IMG/VR virus record: IMGVR_UViG_3300032271_000996
Coordinates: 1 to 58,117 of that record
Source of the DNA: a virus
Strand: one strand, 5' to 3'
Length of the DNA stretch: 58,117 bases
The number at the start of each line of letters is the position of its first letter. Positions within the stretch are counted from its first letter, which is position 1. Below, piece by piece: positions 11,996 through 57,543 of this stretch. The position numbers and the translations under genes were made by a program. Under the pieces are notes generated by a model. The model did not search any database. It saw only the letters and a list, made by a program, of their open reading frames with translations, and was not told the DNA's origin.

Positions 11996-13678
11996 TTAAT
12001 AATTATATTCCCAGAAATAAGATGCCGCATCATCATTATCGGTTGAAAACCACACGTTACCATCTTGGTCTGTTGTTCCATCTTTTGCAAGAGAAAGGTA
12101 TCTTTCTGTGATTTCTGGAATAGAAACTGATAATGGAGCAAATCCAAAGGGTAAACCTTCATTTTCTTCCATTTCCTTTTCGTGTTCTTCTCGTATATAC
12201 TTACGAATGTCAGTCTCTGTCATTTCTTTAAAATAATCTTGAGTGACAATCCAGGCGAAAAGGACTAAACACATTACAAGGTCATCATTTTTACCTTCTT
12301 CTGCACTAAAGCTATTATATCTTGATACAAAAGTGGTAAGTTCACCATAAATATCAGAATCTCTAATTAATAGCTTATCCTCTTCAATGAATTGTTTAAG
12401 GCTCATACAGCCTTTACTTTTAACTGGCTTTGACATTTTAATGCCATACTTGACACCTTTACCCGAAAAATTCTGACCGGCAACTTGGCCACCTCTACCC
12501 AAAGTTTTAGTTTGAATTACATTTGGATACCCATATTCATTGTGTAAAATGTCGGCAACGTGTGCATCGTTATTAATTTCACATAATACATAAGCATTGT
12601 TATATGCCCTGGCAACTGGTTCAATAATATCTGGAAATCTTAGAGATGGAATATTATTATTTCTGTATTTTGCAACAACTCTATATGGTATTTGAGATGC
12701 ATCAAAAATAATAAAGGCTGAATAATCTAATTCAATTCCTTCTGCAATATCTACAGTTATTACATATATTTTATCTGGTTGGGGTTCTTCATATACATCT
12801 AGAAGTTCTTGATTGCGTATTGGATGGTCTAAAACCATATTGGATAGTTTTGCGCCACTGATGAGTGTATCAGATGAACCTAAAAATGCGCACTCGTATT
12901 CCGCATCCCAACGAGATTGTCCAATATTTGCAATAGTTTCATCTTTAAATGCGACATCATATTTGTCTTGCCAATAAACTCTCATTGGGATGTAATTATT
13001 CACTCCCTTTATTGCGTCATCCCACATTCTATAATAATGATTCATACCCGCTGGAGTTGAAACTATTATAACCTTTGATTCTTTACCAGAAGTAATAGTT
13101 GGATAAACCGAACTCATAAATTCATCGGCAACTTGGTGCGGCACGAAAGCAAATTCATCAAGAAAGATAATATTATAAGAACCACCTCGCACGGATGATG
13201 CGGAAGTTGATGCCGAAAAGATTTTAGAGCCGTTTTCTATTTCTAATGATGCTTTATTCCAAGAAATAACGCCTTGTTGGAGCCATTTTGGAAGATTTTC
13301 ATAACCTTTTTGTAATCTACTAAGAAGCTCCTTTGCGGTGCTTGCTTTATTTGCCAGGACTGCAATGTTTACGTTATCATTAAAAATGGCATAGTGAAGT
13401 AGAAAAGATACTACCGCAGTAGATTTTCCAACTTGGCGAGGGCATAACACTATATTGAATCTATTAGCTTGAAATGAAGTTAGCATCCTTTCTTGAAAGG
13501 GATACATATTAAAATTTTGCAACCCGTGGTCAAGGGTTACAATTTTCATATATTTTTTGGCAAAATAAATCGGATCTAGAGAACACCTGATCAATTCTTC
13601 TAACTGTTCTGCATTCAAATCAACTCGGGTATTCGCTTTCTTTAAAAGCGGATTACCAAGATAATGTTCTTCCGGCAT
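11996..13678 (-). CDS. gp17: Large terminase subunit gp17
   Basis: 560 aa packaging motor. N-terminal ATPase domain: Walker A CPRQVGKST at about residue 84, Walker B IIFLDEF with the catalytic Glu near residue 174, and a coupling-type motif VSTPAGMNHYY. The C-terminal RNase H-like nuclease has acidic segments VITVDIAEG, VLCEINNDAH and a late Asp in NDDLVMCLVLFAWI. It cuts concatemeric DNA and pumps it through gp20. Its ATPase domain has a diverged paralogue at 47591-48496. A GATAAATA late promoter lies at 13701-13708. Confidence 0.95.
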   Translation of the reverse strand: MPEEHYLGNPLLKKANTRVDLNAEQLEELIRCSLDPIYFAKKYMKIVTLDHGLQNFNMYPFQERMLTSFQANRFNIVLCPRQVGKSTAVVSFLLHYAIFNDNVNIAVLANKASTAKELLSRLQKGYENLPKWLQQGVISWNKASLEIENGSKIFSASTSASSVRGGSYNIIFLDEFAFVPHQVADEFMSSVYPTITSGKESKVIIVSTPAGMNHYYRMWDDAIKGVNNYIPMRVYWQDKYDVAFKDETIANIGQSRWDAEYECAFLGSSDTLISGAKLSNMVLDHPIRNQELLDVYEEPQPDKIYVITVDIAEGIELDYSAFIIFDASQIPYRVVAKYRNNNIPSLRFPDIIEPVARAYNNAYVLCEINNDAHVADILHNEYGYPNVIQTKTLGRGGQVAGQNFSGKGVKYGIKMSKPVKSKGCMSLKQFIEEDKLLIRDSDIYGELTTFVSRYNSFSAEEGKNDDLVMCLVLFAWIVTQDYFKEMTETDIRKYIREEHEKEMEENEGLPFGFAPLSVSIPEITERYLSLAKDGTTDQDGNVWFSTDNDDAASYFWEYNY

Positions 13679-44292: not shown

Positions 44293-44784
44293 ATGATTGA
44301 TACGGATAAATTAAAGAAACTTATTGATAAGAAATCTGCTGAACTGAGCAAGCCTTCGCCCCAGGGACAGTCACATAATACTCAAACGAAAGATGCTGAG
44401 AATAAGTTTAGACGTGACCGCGATAAAATGAAGGAAGATATTGAAATTGTTGCCGATATTCTATTCAATGAAGGATATGTTGATTCTCAAGAATCGTTAA
44501 ATGTTATTCTTAGTGTTATGAGTGAAGAATTTATTATGGAGGTAGCTCAGAATTATAGAAACGGCTACTTTGATTTTAAAGGTGGAAATTTGGATTCAGG
44601 CAGCACTCCCCAGGGAAAATTAACAAGAAAGGCTCTAAAATTAATTGATAGCCCCAAGTTAAAAGATAGACAACGCGCAAATAAAATGGACAGAGTTCTT
44701 AAATCATTAACGCATCAACCAGAACTCAATAAAAAGAATGGTTTGAAAAATTCTGCAAATTCTATCGCATATACAAACCGATGA
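44293..44784 (+). CDS. Small protein with MSExF helical domain, hypothetical
   Basis: 163 aa: MIDTDKLKKLIDKKSAELSK, then a charged linker, then 'DIEIVADILFNEGYVDSQES', 'LNVILSVMSEEFIMEVAQ'. The last part is the same helical domain as in the 42226 and 46484 genes (VxDxLxxEGxxxSxExxxxIxxxMSExxxxxI). The C-terminus is basic. It ends in ATGA overlap with the MKTF gene that follows, so translation is coupled. Confidence 0.6.
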   Translation: MIDTDKLKKLIDKKSAELSKPSPQGQSHNTQTKDAENKFRRDRDKMKEDIEIVADILFNEGYVDSQESLNVILSVMSEEFIMEVAQNYRNGYFDFKGGNLDSGSTPQGKLTRKALKLIDSPKLKDRQRANKMDRVLKSLTHQPELNKKNGLKNSANSIAYTNR

Positions 44785-45419
44785 AGACATTTGACGAATT
44801 TATCATCGAGGCCAAACATGGTCCCAGAACTCCACGCGAACGAAGACAACAGAGAGGTGAGAATCTCTCAAAAATTTTACAGAGAAGAATGGGGACTAGA
44901 GCAAAAATAAGAGGTGGAAGTAAGGAACACATTCATACAACTGCTGAGCCCGATGATGTTTCAATAGAAATAAGAAAATATAAAAATCCTGCTCACTATG
45001 CCGCAGGTGAAACTCCGAAAGTCAACACGATTAACGGTAAAAATAAGGTGATCAAAAACTCAGAAAGAGCATTTAGAGCAAGACAGTTATTAAAACAGGT
45101 AACTAAAAATCGTAGAAATCCAAAAGGAGCTGTATTTACTACTGATATTGTTCCAAATCTAGAAAGAGAGCACGGTGATTTTGAGAATATCAAAAAGAGA
45201 ACTCAAAATCTTAAAAAGGCGGTGGAAAATGTACCCAGAGAAATTAAAAAAGCTGGAGCAAAAATCGGTGATGTAGTAATAGGAAAGCCTGGACAGACTC
45301 AGAGTGGTGGCCCGGAAAAAGCCGGGAGAAATTCCAGAGCCAGACTATATAAAAAATTACTCCCTAATGCCAGTAAAATGAACCCGGTTACAAATCGTAT
45401 GATGGGTAGAGTAAATTGA
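44781..45419 (+). CDS. Basic protein with T4-type capsid-targeting N-terminus
   Basis: 212 aa. The N-terminus MKTFDEFIIEA closely matches the T4 internal-protein capsid-targeting peptide MKTYQEFIAEA, including the prohead-protease site I-x-E|A. The remainder (KHGPRTPRERRQQRGENLSK, RNSRARLYKKLLPNASKMN) is strongly basic with no recognised enzyme fold. It is expected to be packed in the prohead with DNA, trimmed by the gp21 protease and ejected into the host. Start ATG overlaps the upstream stop (ATGA). The stop overlaps the next gene's TTG start. Confidence 0.65.
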   Translation: MKTFDEFIIEAKHGPRTPRERRQQRGENLSKILQRRMGTRAKIRGGSKEHIHTTAEPDDVSIEIRKYKNPAHYAAGETPKVNTINGKNKVIKNSERAFRARQLLKQVTKNRRNPKGAVFTTDIVPNLEREHGDFENIKKRTQNLKKAVENVPREIKKAGAKIGDVVIGKPGQTQSGGPEKAGRNSRARLYKKLLPNASKMNPVTNRMMGRVN

Positions 45420-45802
45420 AAACATTTGAAGAATTTATAAATGAGGCAAATCAGCCTAAACCCGATGCTCTTAAAACCATCAGTAAAAACTGGGAAAGAA
45501 GGCCAAATTATAGAGGAGTGAATGTTTATGCATCTCAAAATAAAGACCATATAAAAGTTCACGACTTATTTGTACCATCTCATTTGAGAGGTAAAGGTGC
45601 TGGTAGTAGAATTATGAAGGGTATCACAAAATTAGCCGATAAACAAGGGTTCAAAGTATCATTAAATCAGGCTCCAGCACCTGGTTATAAGAAAAAGTTG
45701 GGCACTTTTTATAAGAATTTTGGATTCAAGCCCAATAAAGGAAGAAATAAAGACTTTACGACAAGAGATACTCATATTAGGCAACCCAATCAAAATAAAT
45801 AG
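45416..45802 (+). CDS. GNAT acetyltransferase with capsid-targeting N-terminus, TTG start
   Basis: 128 aa. The start codon is TTG at 45416, inside the upstream stop (aaTTGAaa); it gives MKTFEEFINEA, the capsid-targeting-like peptide. The rest is a compact GNAT fold: a beta strand (HIKVHDLFVPSHLRGKGAGS) with the acetyl-CoA loop RGKGAG, a helix (RIMKGITKLADKQGF) and the C-terminal 'FYKNFGFKPNKGRN'. GNATs transfer acetyl groups to amines on proteins, tRNA or small molecules; the target here is unknown. The natural reading is an acetyltransferase delivered from the virion. Confidence 0.75.
   Translation: MKTFEEFINEANQPKPDALKTISKNWERRPNYRGVNVYASQNKDHIKVHDLFVPSHLRGKGAGSRIMKGITKLADKQGFKVSLNQAPAPGYKKKLGTFYKNFGFKPNKGRNKDFTTRDTHIRQPNQNK
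45794..45801 (+). promoter_or_regulatory. Late promoter (AATAAATA)
   Basis: AATAAATA on the plus strand, 22 bases before the ATG at 45823, overlapping the end of the acetyltransferase gene. Confidence 0.45.
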
Positions 45803-45822
45803 TTCATCTAATTGTAACATTA

Positions 45823-46449
45823 ATGAAGACTTTTAACGAGTTTATAACCGAAGCAAGAGCAAGACCCTCTCAAAGGGCTAGTAAAGGTGGTAAAACTCCA
45901 AAATCTGGCAACAGAAGTGGAAAGTCGGAACTAAACCACGATGTTATTATGAGAGGTGTTCCGGGGTCAGGTAAATCCACAATGGCAAAAAGACTTGCAA
46001 AAGCGACAGGAGGTACATCTTATGGATTCGATGATGCCCGTAAAGAAATTCACGGTCATCATAGCGTTCAGGGTCCAATAAAACCTGTTAAAGATCTGAC
46101 TTATAAAACACTTTCTGGGGCAAATCGTATAAAACCTAGAATTTTAGATAATACTGGAACTGCTAAAAACTTTAAAAAGTCAACTGAAAATGAACTTAAG
46201 GATATTGGATTCAGAAATCCACAAGAGGTTTCACCTGATACTAAATCTAGAGCAACATTCCGTCGCAACAGAAAAAGAGACCATTCGGTTCCTCAGTTTG
46301 TTCTAAGAAGAATGTCTCAGCAGAATAGAGAAAATCCTGGCAGAAAAGAAGCAATTGAAAGAGGTAGAGAACTTACAAAACGTTATAGGCTTAACCGTAA
46401 ATCAACCGGGGCCAAATTAGGATTACCAAGAAGAAGAGGTTCAGAATAG
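45823..46449 (+). CDS. P-loop kinase-like protein with capsid-targeting N-terminus
   Basis: 208 aa. N-terminus MKTFNEFITEARARPSQRAS repeats the capsid-targeting motif with a predicted protease site FITE|A. Then comes a P-loop domain: 'HDVIMRGVPGSGKSTMAKRL' with Walker A GVPGSGKST, 'YGFDDARKEIHG', and 'RILDNTG', as in the polynucleotide/zeta-type kinase families (AAA_33-like). The C-terminal third is highly basic (RRNRKRDHS, RRMSQQNRENPGRKEAIERG). Substrate unknown. It is expected to act in the new host cell if ejected with the genome. Confidence 0.7.
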   Translation: MKTFNEFITEARARPSQRASKGGKTPKSGNRSGKSELNHDVIMRGVPGSGKSTMAKRLAKATGGTSYGFDDARKEIHGHHSVQGPIKPVKDLTYKTLSGANRIKPRILDNTGTAKNFKKSTENELKDIGFRNPQEVSPDTKSRATFRRNRKRDHSVPQFVLRRMSQQNRENPGRKEAIERGRELTKRYRLNRKSTGAKLGLPRRRGSE

Positions 46450-46494
46450 ATGAAAACATTCAATCAATATAAATACTATAAAAATGGATACTAA
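46450..46494 (+). pseudogene. Remnant capsid-targeting mini-ORF (MKTFNQY...)
   Basis: Immediately after the kinase stop an ATG opens MKTFNQYKYYKNGY and stops after 14 codons. The first five residues equal the MKTF(N) start of the neighbouring genes. It overlaps the late promoter at 46468-46475 and the start of the 237-aa gene. It may be the decayed 5' end of a lost MKTF gene or chance. Confidence 0.3.
46468..46475 (+). promoter_or_regulatory. Late promoter TATAAATA
   Basis: Exact TATAAATA on the plus strand, eight bases before the ATG at 46484. A start 6-7 bases after the octamer would make a nearly leaderless message; upstream read-through may supply the rest. Confidence 0.45.
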
Positions 46495-47197
46495 AGAACT
46501 TTTTAATTTATACGAGTCTTATCTGAATATTTACGAGGCCCCGTTTGAGATTACTGGTCCACACTCTTATAAAACTGGTGATGGTCGCCCTCAAGATGAT
46601 TCTATAATAAAGAATACTCCAACCGTTGTGGGCACTTATAAAGGTGACGACAGCGCCACAAGAAAAAAAGCAAGAAATAAGGCCGACAAACTTAATCAAG
46701 AATATGGGGCTAGTGTCTATAGAGTTAATCGTACCGATGAGCCCAGGAAAAGAGGAACAACTGTAAAAGATTCAGTTGAATCTGATTACGATAAGTTGAT
46801 TAATGAGAGAACCAATATCAGTTATGCAAGAGAGGCAATAACAAACATTAGAAATAATTTAAAGAAATACCCTCAAGGCTATAAAGGTGATGACTTTAAT
46901 CACGAACTTAAACTTGCTAAAAGCGCATTTAAAAATCAAGTTAAGCAGGAAAGAGAGAAAAGAAAAGCAAATGAAGATGTAGAATACGTTCTAGATTATC
47001 TTGTAAATGAAGGCTTTACTGATTCTTATGATGGGGCAGAAGCCATTTTAGAAACAATGTCAGATGAATGGTTAGATAGTATTATTGAGGCCAGAAAAGT
47101 TAAAATTAAGGTTGATGTTAAACGGCCAATAGAATGGAAAATCGCGGATATTGGTCCGGGTAAAAAAGAATACAATATAAAAACTTCTAAAGACTAA
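46484..47197 (+). CDS. Charged late protein with 'LYESYLxIYEA' N-terminus and MSExW domain
   Basis: 237 aa. The opening MDTKELFNLYESYLNIYEAP parallels the 42226 gene and ends in I-Y-E|A, itself a possible prohead-protease site. The middle is lysine/arginine-rich. 'DVEYVLDYLVNEGFTDSYDG' followed by 'AEAILETMSDEWLDSIIEA' is the third copy of the helical domain found in the 42226 and 44293 genes. No named function; a head-associated role is inferred. Confidence 0.6.
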   Translation: MDTKELFNLYESYLNIYEAPFEITGPHSYKTGDGRPQDDSIIKNTPTVVGTYKGDDSATRKKARNKADKLNQEYGASVYRVNRTDEPRKRGTTVKDSVESDYDKLINERTNISYAREAITNIRNNLKKYPQGYKGDDFNHELKLAKSAFKNQVKQEREKRKANEDVEYVLDYLVNEGFTDSYDGAEAILETMSDEWLDSIIEARKVKIKVDVKRPIEWKIADIGPGKKEYNIKTSKD

Positions 47198-47234: not shown

Positions 47235-47242
47235 AATAAATA
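47235..47242 (+). promoter_or_regulatory. Late promoter (AATAAATA) of an ORF-less unit
   Basis: AATAAATA on the plus strand, 38 bases after the stop of the 237-aa gene. No gene follows; a terminator lies about 300 bases downstream. Transcription should start near the hairpin at 47249. Confidence 0.45.
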
Positions 47243-47247
47243 GTAGT

Positions 47248-47566
47248 GAGAAGAGAAATCTTCTTATTAGAAGTTAAAGATTTATTACTAAAAGATTCCA
47301 GAAATGGTCCTTTCATTAATGCTTCACCTCTAATTGGTATTAAAATCCAATTACAATGAGTAATAATCCCAGACGACTTATTTAAAGTCATTTGCGGAAT
47401 AATTCGTCTGGCATTATGTCGGGAATGAATTGGATTTTATTACCTCAAAAGTAAAATCCCATTCTTTACCTAAAAATAAAACAAATGGCAGACACAATTT
47501 ATGCGCGTTTGTTATTAAAATTTGCGTAGTTGTGTAATAAAAAAGACCCTTCGAGGGTCTTTTTTA
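47248..47566 (+). ncRNA. Candidate structured non-coding RNA
   Basis: This 319-base stretch has a late-promoter octamer in front and a terminator at its end, but no ORF beyond about 14 codons. It begins with a 6-bp stem closed by a GAAA tetraloop (47249-47264). GGTATTAAAATCCAATT (47336-47352) pairs with 47427-47443 over 17 bases with one mismatch, enclosing CCAGACGA/TCGTCTGG (47369-47376 with 47404-47411). Local alternatives exist: TAATTGG/CCAATTA, GGATTTTA/TAAAATCC and ACACAA/TTGTGT. It matches no RNA family I know. A very small peptide (MADTIYARLLLKFA at about 47486) cannot be ruled out. Confidence 0.45.
47539..47566. terminator. Bidirectional terminator with UUCG loop
   Basis: AAAAAGACCC - TTCG - AGGGTCTTTTTT forms a strong stem with a UUCG tetraloop. 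A runs on the left and T runs on the right allow termination in both directions. It closes the plus-strand late cluster and candidate RNA, and lies just downstream of the minus-strand terminase paralogue. Confidence 0.85.
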
Positions 47567-47590
47567 TTTCTTATTAATAGTGTCAGGAGT

Positions 47591-48496
47591 CTATGTAAAC
47601 TTACATTCAAATTCTTGGTTCCAGGCATCAACACCAACAGTATTAATTATCCGTTCTTTCCATTCCTTATCTTTTCCCGGAATATCATACCATTTGATTA
47701 GAGTTCTTACGAACTGATTCTTACCGTCTTCAGAGTCTTTCCAGATTTTATTGAAGCAATCATCCTGTCGTTTAACTGAAGATGCAATGATGACTTTAAT
47801 GGAGTTATCCCCAGTAAACATAGGAAAAATCTTAAGGAAGAGGTCTTGTGCATCCTTATCTGAAAAAGATGCAAACTCATCAAGATATACAAGGTTAAAA
47901 TTCCAACCCTTAAAACTACTGTAAGTTGTATTATTCATAATAACCCTAGAACCATTCTCCAATTCTAATGTAGACTCATTCCATTTGATAATTTTATGTT
48001 GCATCCATTCTGGAAGATTTTCATAGGCATTCAGTAACATTTGAAAAGCACCACGCCCCATTGCGATTTTGGGGAAAAATATTCCATCATTTACATTATC
48101 ATTAAAGATTATATGATGTAAAACATAGAAAAGGCCGGTTGAAGTTTTACCTGCTACTTGTCTGGGTGCCTTCAAAATATTGAAGCGGTTATTGTGATAT
48201 TTATTGATAAGTTTCTCTTGTGGTTCATATAATTTAATATTAGTCAATCCATCTTTAAGATGTTCAAATTTTACATAATTATTGATGAAATATACTGGGT
48301 CGTCCTTGCACTTTTGTAGTTCTTCAATGTGTTTTCTGGATTTCTTGTATTCATCCGTGGACCAATGGTAATTATCCCATCCACACATTATTGCATTTGC
48401 AAACCAGGAGAGCATTAGGTCTTCGTCGCCACCGTATAGTTCTACAAATTCTTTTGCCCATCGTTGAGCGTTCATATCAGTATTTAAGGGTTTCAT
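47591..48496 (-). CDS. Terminase-like protein: gp17 ATPase domain without nuclease
   Basis: 301 aa. From residue about 65 it aligns along the whole gp17 ATPase domain of this phage: KDDPVYFINNYVKFEHLKDG, FNILKAPRQVAGKTSTGLFY, IIFNDNVN, NAYENLPEWMQHKIIKWNES, TLELENGSRV, FNLVYLDEFASFSD and NQEFECKFT. It stops exactly where gp17's nuclease domain would begin. The Walker A region has one extra residue (PRQVAGKT against PRQVGKS). The first ~60 residues (WAKEFVELYGGDEDLMLSWF, ANAIMCGWDNYHW) are not from gp17. It could be a regulator or decoy of packaging, or a decaying paralogue, though the frame is intact. Confidence 0.75.
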   Translation of the reverse strand: MKPLNTDMNAQRWAKEFVELYGGDEDLMLSWFANAIMCGWDNYHWSTDEYKKSRKHIEELQKCKDDPVYFINNYVKFEHLKDGLTNIKLYEPQEKLINKYHNNRFNILKAPRQVAGKTSTGLFYVLHHIIFNDNVNDGIFFPKIAMGRGAFQMLLNAYENLPEWMQHKIIKWNESTLELENGSRVIMNNTTYSSFKGWNFNLVYLDEFASFSDKDAQDLFLKIFPMFTGDNSIKVIIASSVKRQDDCFNKIWKDSEDGKNQFVRTLIKWYDIPGKDKEWKERIINTVGVDAWNQEFECKFT

Positions 48497-49420: not shown

Positions 49421-53400
<3,980 letters not shown>

Positions 53401-56853: not shown

Positions 56854-57543
56854 ATGAAAACTTTTGAAGAGTTTATTTCGGAAAGGTATTACTCACCTAA
56901 TACAAAACTTCCAGGTTCTGGTAAAACTCCAGTAGAAAAAGCCGTTAATAGGAATAAACAAAGAAATGATAATATTGGACCAAATTCAGATATTGTAAGA
57001 GCAGTAAAGCACAAGTCATTGATACCAAAAGTAAAACATGGAGCCGATAACAAAAATTACAATCCACATTCAAATCATCCTGATGTAGATATAGATGCTC
57101 ATAAAGACCATTATATGACTGTTCATCATCATCCTTCTGGAATTAGTTTTAATGCAACAAAATCAGCAGATGGTATTCATAGTGTTGAATGGGAACATGG
57201 TAGAAATACGCGGAACATGAGACCTAGTGAAAGAGTTAGATTGGCAAAAACTGCTAAGCACGTATGGGATAATCACGTTGTTACAAATATTCCGCACAAT
57301 TCAATAATTCATAATCGCCCATATTTTGATATTAAAAGAAGTACCGGTGAGGAAAGAAATAAGAGAGCAGAGATTTATCAAAATAGAGGAGGATTTGGAC
57401 CAATGGATAAACATGGAGATCAATTTGGTTTTGTGGGTCGCCCTCTTTCACCTAAACAAAAAGCAAAAGGTAAAAAGCAAGTTCAACCAAGAAATCCAGA
57501 AGAGGTTAAAAAATCTGTCAATTGGGACGGACCAATGTTGTAA
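56854..57543 (+). CDS. Protein with capsid-targeting-like N-terminus
   Basis: 229 aa. Starts MKTFEEFISERYYSPNTKLP, the fourth copy of the MKTFxEF opening, here with Arg after the FISE site. The body is His- and Asn-rich (YNPHSNHPDVDIDAHKDH, YMTVHHHPSG) and ends with a basic region ('NKRAEIYQNRGGFGPMDK', 'VGRPLSPKQKAKGKKQ') that I recall from other cyanophage proteins. No enzyme motif recognised. A lone late gene amid minus-strand genes, with its own late promoter. Confidence 0.65.
   Translation: MKTFEEFISERYYSPNTKLPGSGKTPVEKAVNRNKQRNDNIGPNSDIVRAVKHKSLIPKVKHGADNKNYNPHSNHPDVDIDAHKDHYMTVHHHPSGISFNATKSADGIHSVEWEHGRNTRNMRPSERVRLAKTAKHVWDNHVVTNIPHNSIIHNRPYFDIKRSTGEERNKRAEIYQNRGGFGPMDKHGDQFGFVGRPLSPKQKAKGKKQVQPRNPEEVKKSVNWDGPML

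Follow-up and report, generated by a model that had tools for sequence, protein, structure and literature searches.

We analysed an intergenic region that starts at position 47235 of the IMG/VR record IMGVR_UViG_3300032271_000996, a viral sequence of 58,117 bases (hereafter the window) from a T4-like cyanophage, with structural genes, a terminase and the remains of psbA together with a PhotoRC-II RNA and group I introns. The region is flanked by two convergent genes, an open reading frame (ORF) on the plus strand that ends at 47197 and a truncated terminase copy on the minus strand (47591-48496). An earlier note, made from the letters alone, had read it as an ORF-less late transcription unit and a candidate new structured RNA, and had proposed a covariation test on homologues and a search of related phages. 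We confirm that the structures in the region are real and that they belong to an RNA family outside Rfam.

The unit opens with the late-promoter octamer AATAAATA (47235-47242, plus strand; ATAAATA at 47236-47242), as the earlier note had said, and this motif matches the published cyanophage late promoter NATAAATA (PMC2984593). In the window, ATAAATA lies 8-29 nucleotides (nt) 5′ of the start in 13 of 37 genes against 0.42 expected, indicating that it is the late promoter motif of this phage. The distance from TAAATA to the core of the first hairpin is 6-8 nt in 16/16 aligned leaders from relatives and the window. All 16 also have both TAAATA and an ATG; the window retains this start codon, and its gene is gone.

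The fold that follows lies on the plus strand. Hairpin P1 (47246-47267), at the predicted 5′ end of the RNA, is the GAAA-capped stem of the earlier note, and its loop reads GAAA, GCAA, GAGA or AAAA in relatives. P2 (47266-47272 with 47328-47334, AUUAGAA/CUCUAAU) is a closing helix with one pair broken in the window copy, and P3 (47279-47287 with 47317-47325) and P4 (47291-47299 with 47306-47313) are separated by a near-invariant CUA/CAU internal loop. The long-range helix P5, described earlier as 17 base pairs with one mismatch, is indeed paired at 16/17 positions, with its second arm at 47428-47444, one base beyond the position first given, opposite 47336-47352. The stem inside it, P6, exists as well and is longer than the eight pairs claimed (47363-47379 with 47401-47417); its apical extension is weak in the window copy. 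A degenerated Shine-Dalgarno sequence follows at 47470-47480 (CTAAAAATAAA, as against TTAAGGAGAAA in most relatives), and then a short coding remnant (47485-47529), in which MADTIYA (47485-47505; MADTVYA or MPDTVYA in relatives) runs into RLLLKFA and a stop. This unit and the convergent gene for the truncated terminase share a bidirectional intrinsic terminator at 47536-47568, with a UCG loop closed by U-A and not the canonical C(UUCG)G that the earlier note had implied. With the terminator included, 47235-47572 has a folding z of -7.2, and the leader alone has -3.9. The only notable ATG-started ORF on the plus strand has 14 codons, in line with the earlier count except that its ATG stands at 47485 rather than 47486; allowing GTG, an ORF of 37 codons appears.

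An RNA family in mostly uncultured cyanophages

To find homologues, contigs were fetched through the neighbouring genes, then through IMG/VR relatives of the downstream protein, and then by a degenerate motif scan independent of that protein. One contig, L029, and its duplicates are 78% identical to the window along 260 nt that begin at the octamer and reach ATGGCAGA, where a gene of 275 amino acids (aa) starts. Among 52 IMG/VR loci of this gene's relatives, ~20 more carry the leader, giving 15 distinct sequences besides the window. The motif scan returned 26 complete copies among the tested loci, 23 of them on contigs already known to have the gene behind. Its new sequences L206 and L207 run into ATGGCAG and ATGGCCGAA, respectively; the contig of the remaining copy, L221 (near L136), stops at ATG, and three further copies are cut by contig ends. 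The family thus comprises 19 distinct sequences, window included, mostly from uncultured cyanophages, with one plus-strand copy per phage record; the proposed search yielded homologous leaders in many IMG/VR phage contigs. Distant protein relatives mostly lack the RNA, and the closer relatives L133 and L137 have a different upstream sequence; even so, the L147 leader is 82% identical although its protein is only 42% identical to that of L118.

The decisive evidence for the RNA comes from covariation. Using a sequence-only MAFFT alignment, we drew a consensus that begins with P1 (mostly with a GNRA loop). P2, with P3 and P4 inside it, comes next, then P5, which contains P6 and an apical stem, and a final weak hairpin covers the ribosome-binding site. 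Over the 19 sequences, 96.0% of cells are paired, and two-sided changes occur in 20/66 pairs (55 cells). This result was matched by 0/500 shuffles, and slid registers gave 37-50% pairing. RNAalifold returned a z of -17.2 relative to column-shuffled alignments, none of which reached the observed folding score. One P2 pair that showed no variation in the sequences from which the structure was derived turned out to be changed from G-C to A-U in L206, which was recovered later. In addition, covariance model R1, built with the window excluded, retrieves the window copy (47247-47449, the structured core) with 161.6 bits and an E-value of 2e-33. The compensatory changes exceed both the shuffled and the slid controls, and together with the Rfam result below and the homologues in many phages they support the candidate structured RNA of the earlier note.

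These data also identify the strand. G-U cells outnumber A-C cells by 125 to 16, and the alifold score is -90.1 as compared with -69.9 on the complement, showing that the plus-strand RNA is the one under selection and ruling out an RNA from the reverse strand. The same asymmetry, together with the covariation, contradicts the idea that the leader is conserved for a small peptide encoded on either strand. Such a peptide could be sought in a 27-codon minus-strand ORF (MKGPFLESF..., with a possible Shine-Dalgarno sequence) or in the 37-codon plus-strand ORF that begins with GTG. However, no plus-strand ORF is common to the leaders in position and frame, their indels are not multiples of three, the changes are compensatory in pairs, and no credible match was obtained for the 27-aa peptide. 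We consider this explanation extremely improbable.

Rfam searches of the window and three relatives, at gathering and at relaxed thresholds, gave no match at the region except at the terminator. Specifically, PhotoRC-II, wcaG, manA and group I introns have no gathering-score match there, and every sub-threshold hit in the window includes the terminator. A direct DNA search of the INPHARED phages returned chance or terminator-like matches only, and an exact 22-mer scan of IMG/VR had no match. In bacterial genome contigs, none of 21 motif matches fits the model, and none was found with strict filters in 100 genomes from the order of one cyanobacterial match. We found no description of the RNA in the openly searchable literature, subscription literature lying outside the search.

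The Rfam result bears on whether the region could be a palindromic mobile element that was inserted here, or a piece of a group I intron of the kind found in the neighbouring psbA. The corresponding interval of the related contig L009 holds only a short terminator-bearing spacer, L020 and L021 diverge from the window after 47225, and six group I introns lie nearby, all of which would suit an insertion. Against this stand the missing match to a group I intron or other Rfam family, the single copy per genome, and the fixed place of the element in relatives, after the late promoter and before one gene's start codon. An origin of this kind is contradicted by these observations, and we give it next to no weight.

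Five of the 16 aligned leaders (L122, L136, L138, L139 and L146) have an extra, optional arm of ~60 nt 3′ of P3, which forms its own hairpin in several of them. Separately, two genes distantly related to the helical one are preceded by another kind of long leader after the late octamer (L149:2195-2490 and L151:2247-2490). Their leaders share the motif CCCG.A.CGGTA.CGGCGACG..CACCGT.AGTCTT without an Rfam match, and may form a second family of leader RNAs for this gene.

The late gene and its loss from the window

In every relative with readable downstream sequence, the RNA leads into the late gene. The segment equivalent to 47236-47505 is there a complete 5′ leader that extends from the late octamer over ~225-300 nt to the start codon. 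Comparison of these loci thus shows the RNA to be the predicted 5′ leader of a late gene whose product, of ~235-300 aa, is predicted to be all-helical. The protein is predicted to be helical throughout residues 10 to 263, and its model is one long helix. In the loci read, it is followed by a collagen-like gene with PHROG matches to tail-fibre and collar. The helical fold and this neighbour suggest, without proving it, that the product is a fibre or other virion part.

The window copy differs from those of its relatives in several respects. Its gene is cut after MADTIYA, and the Shine-Dalgarno AAGGAG has become AAAAAT. It retains 59/66 pairs, with losses in P2, P3, P4, P5 and the apical stem, and carries eight substitutions at otherwise invariant columns, three of them pair-breaking. 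In P6, one pair has changed in a compensated manner from C-G to U-A (columns 223/248). The fold z of the L118 leader is -8.1, well beyond that of the window leader. Synteny points in the same direction: in L029 as in the window, psbA and the same GIY-YIG gene run towards the leader, and the L029 leader precedes a gene cluster that is missing from the otherwise preserved arrangement of the window.

The window unit is most likely a deletion relic, possibly still transcribed. A deletion would have taken the gene body and its neighbours, so that promoter, leader and seven codons are now joined to the terminator, and late in infection this phage may make a gene-less RNA of ~320 nt whose sequence has begun to decay. 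The description as an ORF-less late unit therefore holds for this copy, because the gene was lost, and does not extend to the relatives, whose RNA leads a late protein gene. Likewise, the 14-codon ORF, which the earlier note had considered as a possible independent small peptide, is the truncated start of the late gene.

We also considered whether the window copy is a stand-alone late small RNA that, once the gene had gone, retained its promoter, acquired a terminator and now acts in trans, perhaps as a decoy for a leader-binding factor. It retains the octamer, P1-P6 and a strong terminator as a clean octamer-to-terminator unit, and the compensated P6 change would fit continued use. However, it is known from one contig only, the motif scan recovered no further complete copy lacking the gene (the scans may not cover records very close to the window), pairs are broken in P2, P3, P4 and P5, and it has a weaker fold than the L118 leader. 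We regard such a role as unlikely.

Proposed function of the leader

Taken together, the best overall explanation, which we hold to be probable, is a conserved, cis-acting late-gene leader that was orphaned in the window by deletion. In cis, the leader would protect the message of the late protein, meter it, or both. P1, at or near the first nucleotide, would shield the 5′ end from 5′-end-dependent decay. The folded core, with its near-invariant internal loops, would control access to the ribosome-binding site or bind a factor. The ribosome-binding site sits in its own weak hairpin (4-6 of 6 pairs kept in all leaders but L140, ~-3 to -6 kcal/mol). By either route, the core would set the output of late protein.

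Several observations weigh against this explanation or loosen parts of it. The length of the leader, the strength of the Shine-Dalgarno hairpin and the 5′ hairpin fit stability, translation control or sensing alike and do not single out one of them. Searches of Pfam, PHROG and INPHARED gave no match for the helical protein. The divergent leaders L139 and L146 keep equally few pairs (57-58 of 66), which makes the decay signal in the window moderate, suggestive rather than proof. The window copy also keeps its compensated P6 pair, and selection on it may be continuing. Finally, the window is a 58-kilobase fragment, and another part of the genome may hold an intact leader with its gene.

A narrower version of this explanation is that the leader is a sensing riboregulator, either riboswitch-like or a protein operator, with the invariant loops as its candidate binding site. 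The unpaired segments CUA/CAU between P3 and P4, and AUGUCAGGGA and AAAGAGAA between P5 and P6, are invariant or near-invariant. Moreover, the complexity exceeds that of a plain stabilising hairpin, the ribosome-binding site lies in a weak hairpin, and autoregulatory leader structures are known on the T4 gene 32 and 43 messenger RNAs (mRNAs) (PMC3014915). On the other side, the RNA has no Rfam relation and no conserved alternative pairing for a switch. The alternative local stem 47421-47439 with 47452-47470, the kind of pairing from which the earlier note had proposed a switch, is not conserved: 73% of its cells are paired in relatives (neighbouring registers reach up to 69%) as compared with 96% for the consensus fold, and L140 keeps 5/19 pairs. 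Nor did we find any other conserved alternative fold across the leaders, which leaves a switch unproven. Sensing is thus possible and, in our view, doubtful. Still more demanding is the combination of a late-leader riboregulator of a virion-gene message, responding to a metabolite, an ion or a phage protein at the loops, with the window copy as a trans decoy, which we rate as distinctly improbable.

The favoured cis-acting leader can be placed among known RNAs. Bacterial ompA-type 5′ stabiliser leaders begin, or almost begin, with a stem-loop and require no conserved internal-loop sequence. The present RNA likewise has a stem-loop at or near its predicted first nucleotide, whereas large parts of its downstream domains are conserved in sequence. 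The T4 gene 32 and 43 operators resemble it as structured leaders of T4-type phage mRNAs that control their own message, a control that is inferred here; they consist of a short pseudoknot or an 18-nt hairpin to which the protein encoded by the gene itself binds (PMC3014915), whereas the present leader is large, has multiple helices and stands on a late gene. PhotoRC-II, of which the window has one copy near psbA, and the other systems described with it (PMC2864571, PMC9964418) are different: the present RNA begins at a late promoter and leads into a late gene rather than a metabolic gene of host origin. It represents a new RNA family within a known class, the structured phage mRNA leader, and is unusually large for a T4-type late gene. 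Leaders of such genes are usually very short, as illustrated by the 13 window genes with the octamer just ahead of their start. A well-supported folded leader of 225-300 nt at one late gene in ~20 phage contigs suggests post-transcriptional control of that protein. The orphan copy suggests that deletion can turn a promoter and leader into an RNA without a gene, and new phage small RNAs could plausibly arise in this way.

Neighbouring genes

The minus-strand terminase copy at 47591-48496 encodes 301 aa with the ATPase domain only, is 36% identical to the full large subunit (11996-13678), and ends at a conserved ECxF motif, where the full protein continues. Comparable truncated copies adjoin the same GIY-YIG gene in L004-L008 as in the window. 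On the other side, the plus-strand ORF at 46484-47197 is a mosaic gene, whose last 37 residues match the interior of a 544-aa protein (78% identity) encoded near the structural genes of L018. Several small plus-strand proteins at 44781-46449 and 56854-57543 start with MKTF.EFI.EA or similar and may in this resemble the capsid-targeting N termini of internal proteins in T4. Finally, six group I introns above the Rfam gathering score lie within ~3.7 kilobases on the minus strand (49498-53231), in and around the psbA pieces and with homing-endonuclease-like ORFs between them, whereas psbA is uninterrupted in the relatives L008 and L029.
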